From NCBI GenBank assembly GCA_009711825.1, contig VEMY01000058.1:1-35081 (forward strand): a DNA stretch of 35,081 bases. The letters are read 5' to 3'. This document shows, piece after piece, positions 9,477 to 22,520 of the stretch. The notes under the pieces were generated by a model that made no database searches, was not told the DNA's origin, and saw only the letters and a list, made by a program, of their open reading frames with translations. Numbering within the stretch: the first letter of the stretch is position 1; every line of letters starts with the position of its first letter. The stretch is from Bacillota bacterium. Lineage in GTDB: Bacteria > Bacillota > Proteinivoracia > UBA4975 > VEMY01. The position numbers and the translations under genes are program-made.

Positions 9477-9758
9477 CTATTCTTTTTCTTCAGGGTTGTG
9501 GGGATAACGAAGAGTTGCATCAAGCAGCACCCAATCATTTTCTTCCCAGCCCCTGACCATGCCAACAATTCCCGGGTCATCACCCTTCCAGGTTATGTAG
9601 TCCCGGACAAATAATTGGGCCGGCACTTCAAAGTCGGTAGGATCGTAATTCACGACCTGCTGATAATATTGCTCGCGGGGGACCCGCAGCCACCTGTGGA
9701 CCACCCGCACATTTTCTACCGGTCCCAGGTCCTCTACATGACTAAAAATATCTGCCAT
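9477..9758 (-). CDS. small conserved-looking hypothetical protein, 93 residues
   Basis: No family was recognised. The product is soluble and acidic, rich in aromatic residues (VVHRWLRVPREQYYQQVVNYDP, FVRDYITWKGDDPG), with no signal peptide, membrane segment or cysteine. A good binding site (GAGGTGATAAT) precedes the ATG, and a hairpin follows the stop, which supports a real single gene. It is divergent from the exporter leader: its start lies 67 bp from the -35 element of that promoter. Function unknown. Confidence 0.7.
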   Translation of the reverse strand: MADIFSHVEDLGPVENVRVVHRWLRVPREQYYQQVVNYDPTDFEVPAQLFVRDYITWKGDDPGIVGMVRGWEENDWVLLDATLRYPHNPEEKE

Positions 9759-9824: not shown

Positions 9825-9853
9825 TTGCCACCCTCACAACAGAGTTGTATAAT
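9825..9853 (+). promoter_or_regulatory. strong sigma-A promoter of the ABC exporter leader
   Basis: TTGCCA (9825-9830), a 17-bp spacer and a perfect TATAAT (9848-9853). The expected start point is near 9860, about 11 bases before the AAAGGAGG site of the leader ORF. Confidence 0.8.
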
Positions 9854-9887
9854 AAGCTGGCAATTATCAGAAAGGAGGCCGCGGAAC

Positions 9888-9989
9888 ATGCAAACAATGA
9901 TTCGACTCAAAGGTGCTGCTAGCAGCAAGCTTAACAAGGACTCAGTGTGTACTTTTCCCGGCCGGTACTTGAATTTCTTTCTTATTTAA
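9888..9989 (+). CDS. 33-residue leader or small protein upstream of the ABC exporter
   Basis: A 34-codon ORF (including TAA) starts at ATG 9888, with a near-perfect Shine-Dalgarno AAAGGAGG at 9871-9878 and a strong promoter just upstream. The peptide has a basic N-terminal half (MQTMIRLKGAASSKLNK) and a hydrophobic, aromatic end (CTFPGRYLNFFLI). No family was recognised. Two terminator-like hairpins separate it from the exporter ATPase start at 10115. Its last codons lie in the 5' arm of a hairpin (9967-10008) that shares 10007-10008 with the first terminator stem. A role as an attenuation leader peptide is inferred. It could equally be a small secreted or membrane-active peptide exported by the adjacent transporter. 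Confidence 0.6.
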   Translation: MQTMIRLKGAASSKLNKDSVCTFPGRYLNFFLI

Positions 9990-10006
9990 TATTTGAAAGA
10001 ACTCAG

Positions 10007-10041
10007 GTCATCGGCTCGGTTGCCGATGACTTTTATATTTT
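10007..10041 (+). terminator. intrinsic terminator 1 in the exporter leader
   Basis: GTCATCGGC (10007-10015) and GCCGATGAC (10022-10030) form a perfect 9-bp stem with a 6-nt loop, followed by TTTTATATTTT. It ends 18 to 52 bases after the leader ORF stop and before the exporter genes, so readthrough would be needed for expression from the upstream promoter. Confidence 0.82.
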
Positions 10042-10066
10042 CCCGTACTCTTTTTCGCGGGCGATG

Positions 10067-10095
10067 TAGTCATGGGGCAATCATGGCTATTTTTT
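10067..10095 (+). terminator. terminator-like hairpin 2 just before the exporter RBS
   Basis: TAGTCATG (10067-10074) pairs with CATGGCTA (10082-10089), including one G-T pair, around a 7-nt loop, then six T. It lies six bases before the CAGGAGGAG binding site of the ATPase gene. The stem is only 8 bp, so its strength is uncertain. Confidence 0.55.
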
Positions 10096-10114
10096 ATGTT
10101 CAGGAGGAGTAAAA

Positions 10115-10936
10115 ATGAACTTTGCAATCAAATGCGAAAATGTGGTCAAAAGCTTCTGGGAGGATAAGGAGGCAGATAAATCTGCCTATTGGCTCAAGCG
10201 TCTGCGGCCGGGGAAATCCCTGGTGCGGGCCGTTGATGATGTAAGCATTCAGGTGCAGCGCGGCGAGATTTTTGGTCTGCTGGGACCCAATGGTTCCGGC
10301 AAGTCCACCTTAATTCGCCTGATGGCAACCCTGCTCCTGCCCGACAGTGGCACTGTCACCGTTTTGGACCACGACGTTGTCAAGGAAACCTTGGCCGTTC
10401 GCAAAGTCATAAATCGGGTTTCGGTGGATGCGGCGTTTTTCAAAAAACTCTCCGCCCACGAAAACCTGCTCTATGCCGCCCGGCTATATGATGTAGATTC
10501 GCGGTTGGCTGCTCAGACCGCTGCGAAAATTCTCCGCCGTCTTGGCTTCAAAGAAAACAAAATTTACGCGCCCATGGAGAACCTCTCCCGGGGCATGCAG
10601 CAAAAGGTCGCCATCGCCCGGGCGCTCCTCACTTCGCCTGTGGTCATGCTTCTGGATGAACCTACCACCGGCCTCGACCCCAAGAGCAAGCGGGATGTCC
10701 AGGAATTTGTCCGGGAAATCCAGGGAGAGCACGATGCGACAATTATCCTCACCACCCACGATATGTTTGAGGCAGAACGGCTCAGTGACCGCATCGCCAT
10801 CATCGACAATGGTCGGATAGAGGATTTGGACACCGCCGCCGGGCTCAAAGCTAAAGCCGGTGTCGATTCGATGGATGATGTTTTCTTTGCTCTCACCGGC
10901 AAAGAATGGGAGGAGGCAATTGCCGATGAGTGTTAA
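10115..10936 (+). CDS. ABC exporter ATPase subunit (ABC-2/drug-efflux type)
   Basis: The protein of 273 residues is a single nucleotide-binding domain. Walker A is GPNGSGKST near residue 57, the signature is ENLSRGMQQKV (R in place of the central G), Walker B ends LLLDEPTTGLDP, and the H-loop is LTTHDMFEAE. Binding site CAGGAGGAG is six bases from the ATG. An insert at residues 17-36 (DKEADKSAYWLKRLRPGKSL) before the first core strand is like that of ABC-2 polysaccharide or drug exporters. Its stop overlaps the permease start. The cargo is unknown. The preceding leader suggests induction, possibly by a compound affecting translation. Confidence 0.92.
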   Translation: MNFAIKCENVVKSFWEDKEADKSAYWLKRLRPGKSLVRAVDDVSIQVQRGEIFGLLGPNGSGKSTLIRLMATLLLPDSGTVTVLDHDVVKETLAVRKVINRVSVDAAFFKKLSAHENLLYAARLYDVDSRLAAQTAAKILRRLGFKENKIYAPMENLSRGMQQKVAIARALLTSPVVMLLDEPTTGLDPKSKRDVQEFVREIQGEHDATIILTTHDMFEAERLSDRIAIIDNGRIEDLDTAAGLKAKAGVDSMDDVFFALTGKEWEEAIADEC

Positions 10937-11729
10937 GTCTGAAATACGGGCGACCTACGCCTTTGTAGAGCGGAACTTCAATTTGGTCCGCCGCTATATC
11001 AACTGGGAAATCGTGTTTGTGTTTTACACGATTATCAACACACTGACCATCGGCCTGATAGGCGTTCAGGCCGGGCAGGAGGCGGGGGAGACGGTGCTCT
11101 ACCTGATTGTCGGCGCCCTGCTCTGGGGTTTTCTGTCGGTATTGTTCCACGAGGTCAGCGAATCGGTGAGCTGGGAGCGTTGGGAGGGCACCATCGAATA
11201 CACCTTTATGGCGCCCATCCATCGGCTTACCCATCTGGGTGGAATGTGCATCTTCGCAATTATCTACGGCACCATCCGTACAGCAATTGTATTGGTGGCC
11301 GTTACTTTCTTCTTCGATATTAGTCTTGCCGGCGCCAACTTGTTTTCTGGACTTACCGTGCTGGCAGTATCCAGTCTCTCCTTCATCGGGCTGGGATTGA
11401 TGGCGGCGGTGCTGCCTTTGATGTCGCCGGAAAAGGGCTCCCAGGCCACCCATATCATACAAGGCTTTATCCTGTTGGTCTCGGGTGTGTACTATGAAGT
11501 GGAAGTTTTGCCGGTGTGGTTGCAGCCCCTGTCCACAATCTCACCCGCCACCTATACCCTGCGGGCGGCCCGCGCCGCCCTGCTGGAAGGCGCTACTGTC
11601 CGGGAGTTGGGGCCGGAGCTCTTGATGCTTGCCGTGATTGGCCTGGCGTTGATTCCCATCGGATTGTTCATCTTCTCCTTGGGGGAACGTTATGCTATGC
11701 GGGCAGGAAAATTGAAACGGAATGGTTAA
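10926..11729 (+). CDS. ABC-2 type exporter permease
   Basis: A 267-residue integral membrane protein of about six helices, with the ABC-2 layout: cytoplasmic N-terminus, EYTFMAPIHRLTHLGG amphipathic segment, then paired helices and a C-terminal SPATYTLRAARAALLEG motif common in these permeases. Start chosen at ATG 10926 because GGAGGAGG lies ten bases before it. The start overlaps the ATPase stop by eleven bases, so the two are co-translated. It would pair as a dimer with two ATPase copies. The exported substrate cannot be inferred from sequence. Confidence 0.87.
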   Translation: MSVKSEIRATYAFVERNFNLVRRYINWEIVFVFYTIINTLTIGLIGVQAGQEAGETVLYLIVGALLWGFLSVLFHEVSESVSWERWEGTIEYTFMAPIHRLTHLGGMCIFAIIYGTIRTAIVLVAVTFFFDISLAGANLFSGLTVLAVSSLSFIGLGLMAAVLPLMSPEKGSQATHIIQGFILLVSGVYYEVEVLPVWLQPLSTISPATYTLRAARAALLEGATVRELGPELLMLAVIGLALIPIGLFIFSLGERYAMRAGKLKRNG

Positions 11730-22413: not shown

Positions 22414-22421
22414 TTAAAAAA

Positions 22422-22515
22422 CCTTTAAAGACAGTCCTGTGAGGCTGGCAAGGGTCACAATTTAGGATATTTGTGTACACAAGCCTTGGCCCCTCACAGG
22501 AGCCAAGGCTTTTTT
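22422..22515 (+). promoter_or_regulatory. PyrR-type attenuator 1 (binding hairpin plus terminator)
   Basis: AGTCCTGTGAGGCT (22433-22446) matches the PyrR binding consensus ARUCCNGNGAGGYU and lies in a hairpin closed by CCTT/AAGG (22422-22453). The terminator stem is AAGCCTTGGC (22481-22490) with its complement (22502-22511), then T run to 22515. Its loop (CCTCACAGGA) is the exact complement of TCCTGTGAGG in the binding hairpin, so the two can pair as an antiterminator. In the known mechanism, UMP-bound PyrR stabilises the binding hairpin and lets the terminator form. Confidence 0.93.
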
Positions 22516-22520
22516 GAGCG

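Follow-up and report, generated by a model that had tools for sequence, protein, structure and literature searches.

A probable ribosome-mediated attenuator ahead of an ABC-2 type exporter in Bacillota

The exporter genes and their leader

The window, the whole stretch of 35,081 nucleotides analysed here (contig VEMY01000058.1 of a Bacillota bacterium), carries two overlapping genes for a putative ABC exporter on its forward strand. Profile searches assigned the first (10115-10936) to the DrrA-like exporter ATPases (PF00005) and the second (10926-11729) to the ABC-2 permeases (PF01061), with 113.5 bits for ABC_tran and 61.1 bits for ABC2_membrane, both above the gathering scores. The ATPase gene is preceded by the Shine-Dalgarno (SD) sequence AGGAGGAG at 10102-10109 (+). 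The combination of an ATPase with an ABC-2 permease is shared with DrrAB-type exporters, and DrrA and DrrB are the best NCBIfam relatives, but both proteins score far below the curated cut-offs (235.8 against 312.45 bits for DrrA, TIGR01188; 46 against 223.05 bits for DrrB, TIGR01247). A sequence search of the permease against solved structures gave no match. Considering the exporter family together with the type of regulation described below, the function of the exporter is presumably drug efflux.

Upstream of the ATPase gene, a promoter (TTGCCA-17-TATAAT, 9825-9853, consensus score 11/12) is followed by the SD AAAGGAGG at 9871-9878, which is kept in relatives, and by a 33-codon leader ORF at 9888-9989 that encodes MQTMIRLKGAASSKLNKDSVCTFPGRYLNFFLI and ends in a stop codon, all on the forward strand and as put forward in the preliminary description of this DNA. 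Transcription is expected to start near 9860. This was the single promoter-like site between 9700 and 10200; as shuffled sequences contain 1.1 on average, it carries no significance by itself. Among homologous leaders, promoter-like sites lie within 110 nt upstream in 51 of 68 compared to 4.3 expected, and an SD with a short ORF was found at 58 homologous loci. Codons 6-8 of the window ORF (9903-9911, +) read Arg-Leu-Lys, an Arg/Lys-X-Arg/Lys motif that is referred to below as +X+. A search of the leader against Rfam 15 returned no family at the gathering score, and a permissive threshold gave a chance snoRNA match only.

A 93-codon ORF on the reverse strand (9477-9758), divergent from the leader, matches no family in Pfam or NCBIfam; in the relative G003 the start of this ORF is likewise conserved beside the leader. 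Elsewhere in the window, positions 52-125 match the Rfam group II intron domain RF00029 (41.2 bits, cut-off 40) shortly before a 5'-nucleotidase-like ORF at 212-2203, and an attenuator of the ordinary pyrimidine type, with a PyrR binding site (RF00515), lies at 22418-22516.

Two terminator-like hairpins before the exporter had been proposed at 10007-10041 and 10067-10095, and both were recovered by a terminator scan of the window leader, which found two stem-loops (10005-10032 and 10066-10090) compared to 0.6 expected. With its U-rich tract, terminator 1 (T1) spans 10005-10041 (+) and begins 16 nt past the leader stop codon; with its U tract, terminator 2 spans 10066-10098 (+). T1 alone folds with z = -5.2, compared to z = -2.0 for the weaker region of the second hairpin. 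The longer hairpin that had been noticed over the end of the ORF also exists, but its extent is 9961-10015 (+) rather than 9967-10008, and the stretch shared with T1 is the whole 5' arm of T1 (10005-10015) instead of two to four bases. This antiterminator hairpin (AT; GCCGGUACUUGA...UCAGGUCAUCGGC) has a folding energy of -20.8 kcal/mol with z = -6.0, equalled by none of 200 shuffles; its loop region includes the stop codon of the leader ORF. Because AT holds the entire 5' arm of T1, the two structures are mutually exclusive.

Segment 2 (TTTCCCGGCCGGTACTTG, 9954-9971, +), within the last third of the leader ORF, can pair in two ways. With segment 3 it forms AT (the 2:3 pairing; p = 0.010 in a shuffle test in the window), and with the SD region at 9872-9887 (+; segment 1), which includes most of the SD, it forms a predicted anti-antiterminator (AAT, the 1:2 pairing) that belongs to the minimum-energy fold of the whole leader. 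Segments 3 and 4 are the two arms of T1, so that T1 itself is the 3:4 pairing. As predicted from these folds, the three nested alternatives 1:2, 2:3 and 3:4 make a trp-like three-way switch.

No antiterminator was identified for terminator 2. The exporter SD can pair with 10047-10056, and a possible hairpin at 10047-10109 (+), taken from the predicted fold of the window only, might sequester this SD in read-through RNA; terminator 2 may also take part in it. The tandem second terminator is present in G001, G003 and L041 as well, terminator 2 is conserved in the order, and tandem second terminators are frequent in the exporter-leader family (L004, L028, L041, L103). Between the tandem terminators and the ATPase gene, loci L032 and L037 have a second small ORF with IEGPRSYR-SI-NDKIR common to Thermoactinomyces and Paenactinomyces, and two metagenome-assembled genomes (MAGs; L029 and L030) have one with MEFSI-IP at the same place.

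Recurrence of the layout and covariation of the pairings

The preliminary description had proposed a search for homologous leaders upstream of this exporter type. Scanning GTDB genomes with an alignment of the permease yielded 46 loci, to which a phylum search contributed about 20 more that were not duplicates. By an automatic rule (an SD, an ORF of 12-60 codons and a terminator within 110 nt), 34 of 66 exporter ATPases were found to have the layout upstream, compared to none of 149 neighbouring genes of the same loci, which served as the control set. In a further 26 loci of another class, about seven of which repeat earlier loci, the rule found a leader in 22. According to record titles, the carriers are mainly Bacillota (Alicyclobacillus, Thermoactinomyces, Paenactinomyces, Sulfobacillus, Symbiobacterium, Thermaerobacter and many MAGs), and others are MAGs labelled Zixibacteria, Coatesbacteria, Stahlbacteria and Sericytochromatia. 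Cultured carriers include Alicyclobacillus kakegawensis (L052), A. herbarius (L053), Thermoactinomyces daqus (L032) and Paenactinomyces guangxiensis (L037).

Several loci depart from the common pattern. The locus L030, from a MAG titled Desulfovibrio sp., encodes a permease 77% identical to that of the window; because the other close relatives of the permease are Bacillota, its bin label or contig may be wrong. In three Chloroflexi loci (L068-L070) the exporter is preceded by a promoter, a 22-codon ORF without an SD and then a terminator, which may represent this form of control minus the SD pairing. At L094 the ATPase gene is preceded by a promoter and a terminator and no leader ORF.

For the pairing tests, 58 leader ORFs were curated by SD, position and downstream terminator, and fixed uniform windows were used from then on. 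In a partner swap over 40 loci, the duplex energy of each segment with its own partner was compared to that with the segment of every other locus, with composition centred out. The advantage of own partners was 5.1 kcal/mol for 1:2 (11 standard deviations, with a permutation sd of 0.44) and 5.6 kcal/mol for 2:3 (8 standard deviations, with a permutation sd of 0.67), each with p = 5e-5, which is the floor of 20,000 permutations and, as some loci are related, is to be read as strong rather than exact. As a control, the ATPase's own SD was swapped against its own early codons with a null result (p = 0.98). In 14 held-out new loci, 1:2 again reached the floor (p = 5e-5) and 2:3 was modest (p = 0.029). 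The 1:2 positions just past the SD show up to five or six base-pair types, for instance AGGUCGUUGAA/UUCAACGACCU in L033, AGGUCGUGAAAU/AUUUCGCGACCU in L041 and GGCCGUACC/GGUACGGCC in L036. The signal is uneven: by partner swap about half of the loci are individually unremarkable for 2:3, and 1:2 is weak or absent at the loci labelled Zixibacteria, Coatesbacteria and Stahlbacteria; support for 1:2 does come from L048, labelled Sericytochromatia (p = 0.007). A single-locus dinucleotide shuffle for 2:3 was replaced by the partner swap, since in G+C-rich lineages shuffled partners pair about equally. Support for the predicted AAT is comparative and strong across loci, and in the window alone 1:2 is not individually significant (p = 0.21 by shuffle; rank 0.17 by partner swap).

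These results bear on an alternative in which the hairpins are plain constitutive terminators, the exporter has a promoter of its own and the alternative hairpin arose by chance. The lone promoter-like site of the leader stands at chance count, so promoter prediction cannot exclude others. The scan nevertheless found nothing promoter-like from T1 to the ATPase gene, and so no sign of the separate exporter promoter after 10041 that, according to the preliminary description, would speak against the switch. Mutually exclusive pairings also covary in about 50 loci, the layout count in the controls was 0/149, and we regard this alternative as highly improbable.

Closer to the window, a DNA search of 61 relatives detected the leader in two genomes that belong to another family within the order (E = 3e-17 and 1e-13), with 73-76% identity to the window across AT, T1 and the distal part of the ORF. 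Both leaders directly precede an orthologous ATPase gene (74-75% identical), and their ORFs encode MTRRRFGFINFTQGISVYISRPVPVLFTL and MTRRNFGFMYSTQGTSVYISRPVPVLFTL. Although the DNA of segment 2 is conserved, the window reads it in a different frame from G001 and G003. Compared to the relatives, the window carries a single additional base between SD and ATG and a second one immediately ahead of the stop codon; these single-base differences from L003 and L004 indicate that the start and stop are held in place while the peptide is replaced. Conservation of the ORF in relatives, which the preliminary description had made a touchstone, thus holds for the SD, the stop position and the RNA pairings and does not hold for the peptide and frame. 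Across lineages, leader ORFs usually have 20-40 codons, their peptides are unrelated in sequence and third-position bias is weak (55/73/88, p = 0.02). At the level of sequence comparison, this pattern points to selection on translation start, translation end and RNA pairing rather than on the peptide.

A strong SD and the presence of an ORF at most homologous loci might suggest a functional small peptide, such as a substrate or subunit of the exporter, followed by ordinary terminators. With unrelated peptides, different frames of the same DNA in the window and in G001 and G003, and stop position and RNA pairings as what is kept, we find such a peptide very hard to credit. A conserved stalling peptide was likewise ruled out by the unrelated sequences and the frame change relative to the nearest relatives.

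Ribosome position and the signal of the leader

In the largest group of leaders the terminator begins 15-18 nt after the leader stop codon. The footprint of a terminating ribosome reaches roughly 15-18 nt past the stop. Because the two distances are about equal, a ribosome bound at the stop would block 2:3 yet spare the terminator. The window was folded with blocked ribosome footprints, a calculation at equilibrium, whereas the real decision is kinetic. Free RNA and RNA with a ribosome at the stop both folded into 1:2 with T1. With a ribosome at codon 7, the probability of 2:3 was 1.00 until the 3' arm of T1 existed, and with a ribosome at the start codon 2:3 was favoured (0.70) even with T1 complete. 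Folding with and without a ribosome, a check proposed at the outset, thus shifted the outcome from AAT with T1 to AT according to ribosome position. Once T1 is complete, the equilibrium prefers T1 despite a stall at codon 7, and the model therefore depends on either kinetic trapping or a pause of the polymerase. The rear edge of a ribosome that holds codon 7 in its P site would lie near start+4, crowding segment 1 of the window rather than covering it; a stalled ribosome would cover segment 1 only when +X+ sits at codons 2-5.

The proposed switch would work as follows. In untranslated RNA, segment 1 would pair with 2 and segment 3 with 4, leading to termination with the leader SD masked. A ribosome at the stop codon would cover the inner 2:3 hairpin and halt short of the terminator, so that transcription would terminate too. 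If a ribosome is arrested on the start codon or shortly beyond it, it would separate segment 1 from 2, 2:3 would form before segment 4 is made, and polymerase would run on into the exporter genes. The likely inducer would be a macrolide- or ketolide-like exit-tunnel drug causing arrest early in the ORF, at Arg-Leu-Lys in codons 6-8, and initiation inhibitors would also trigger the switch. That ribosome position chooses between structures, as suggested beforehand, accords with the covariation of the pairings, its replication in held-out loci and the layout count of 0/149 in controls, and on these data the region is very probably a ribosome-position transcription attenuator.

For ketolides, Arg/Lys-X-Arg/Lys is the main arrest motif, and stall sites of macrolides are enriched in it (PMC8298421); tlrB is induced through arrest by tylosin at RYR, the R/K-X-R/K motif of its leader (PMC6851288). 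In ErmDL the motif is Arg6-Leu7-Arg8 with Leu7 in the P site (PMC8298421), the position occupied by Arg6-Leu7-Lys8 in the window leader. Taking one leader per lineage, +X+ occurred within residues 1-14 in 16 of 35 lineages compared to 7.9 +/- 2.2 in permuted peptides (p = 0.001), and no excess was observed at spacings 1, 3, 4 and 5 or in the rest of the peptide. Among 14 new leaders it occurred in 6 (2.8 expected, p = 0.02); combined, 22 of 49 lineages carry it in the first 14 residues (10.6 expected, p = 0.0003), with no excess at spacings 1, 3 and 4. Because early +X+ is enriched and the RLK of the window is placed as the RLR of ErmDL, exit-tunnel antibiotics are favoured as the natural signal, an assignment that we hold at about even confidence.

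The chief rival keeps the same switch and makes it independent of the peptide: the slowing of initiation or of the first codons, by drugs or by starvation, would act as for VmlR, and +X+ would be incidental. VmlR is induced by initiation arrest on a three-codon uORF whose sequence can be altered (PMC9226507). In the window the SD itself forms segment 1, the ribosome at the start codon gives the strongest antiterminator state in folding, the leader peptides are poorly conserved, and early +X+ is missing from 27 of 49 lineages. All of these would fit a peptide-independent signal, but an enrichment confined to spacing 2 and to the first 14 residues, and replicated in new loci, would not be expected from it; we therefore consider it a genuine though rather doubtful possibility.

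The trp-like layout of 1:2, 2:3 and 3:4, together with Arg-Pro dipeptides close to the C terminus in several lineages, raises another alternative: a leader that counts Arg, Lys or Pro codons ahead of a transporter of amino acids or peptides. No run of codons for a single, regulated amino acid is present in the window leader or among the 58 leaders, the genes downstream encode an ABC-2 exporter rather than functions in biosynthesis or uptake, and the Arg-Pro codons coincide with segment 2, which the window translates in a different frame, and therefore track RNA pairing. An amino acid attenuator is thus very unlikely. For the same coincidence (segment 2 is CGGCCU-like), C-terminal Arg-Pro was rejected as an arrest motif and treated as a by-product of pairing, although it may serve as a second stall site. 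Taken as a whole, the preferred reading is a ribosome-mediated attenuator of an ABC-2 type drug exporter, likely induced by exit-tunnel antibiotics, and from the sequence data we consider it probable.

Comparison with known attenuators and biological meaning

Attenuation like that of bmrCD, the parallel first suggested for this locus, holds for the predicted switch logic and not for the exporter, since BmrC and BmrD belong to an exporter class different from the ABC-2 pair. The window has the features of leaders of the BmrB, TlrB and VmlR kind: a promoter, SD and ORF in sequence, an exclusive terminator and antiterminator overlapping the ORF, and an anti-antiterminator. Like the window, bmrBCD of Bacillus subtilis has a translated leader ORF and a terminator, antiterminator and anti-antiterminator before an ABC drug exporter, and its attenuator responds to ribosome-targeting antibiotics (PMC4191407). 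The bmrB terminator lies inside the ORF, whereas that of the window follows the stop codon, and the bmrB anti-antiterminator is in the coding sequence, in contrast to its place at the leader SD here (PMC4191407).

The vmlR leader of B. subtilis shares the logic of AAT, AT and terminator, a uORF in the AAT, a hairpin over the main SD, of which the window has a possible counterpart, and, as for the leader ORFs here, a uORF that tolerates sequence change (PMC9226507). Its three-codon uORF has an SD that is single-stranded ahead of the AAT, whereas here the SD is an AAT strand, and the controlled gene encodes an ABC-F factor rather than an exporter (PMC9226507). The tlrB (yxjB) leader of B. subtilis shares the R/K-X-R/K motif and transcription attenuation, and its hairpin also represses leader translation, as in the window model; the motif is C-terminal in a 9-residue peptide, compared to a position near the N terminus of a longer peptide here, and the gene encodes an rRNA methylase, not an exporter (PMC6851288). 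No homology was found between the window leader and ErmDL outside the +X+ motif, and ermD is controlled by mRNA refolding that favours methylase expression (PMC8298421).

Judged from the sequence, the leader is a known kind of mechanism with a new trait, a leader SD built into the anti-antiterminator ahead of an uncharacterised exporter class. A search of the open-access literature, with partial coverage, did not find the leader or leader-controlled DrrAB-like exporters described, and the design appears previously undescribed. We further propose, with somewhat less than even confidence, that the SD-in-AAT architecture might have been kept with the exporter across Bacillota and some candidate phyla while the peptide was rewritten and early +X+ evolved anew.

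Few ribosome-sensing leaders of efflux genes have been described so far, and these come from cultured bacteria. The many homologous loci share a common RNA logic without a common peptide, ahead of an exporter class that has no Rfam entry, and they offer a natural set of variants for studying the shares of peptide and RNA in sensing. If the proposal is true, exit-tunnel antibiotics would be a long-standing natural pressure in largely uncultured bacteria, uncultured and thermophilic lineages would be predicted to meet such antibiotics in nature, and the exporter would be a dedicated, uncharacterised efflux system for the macrolide class.
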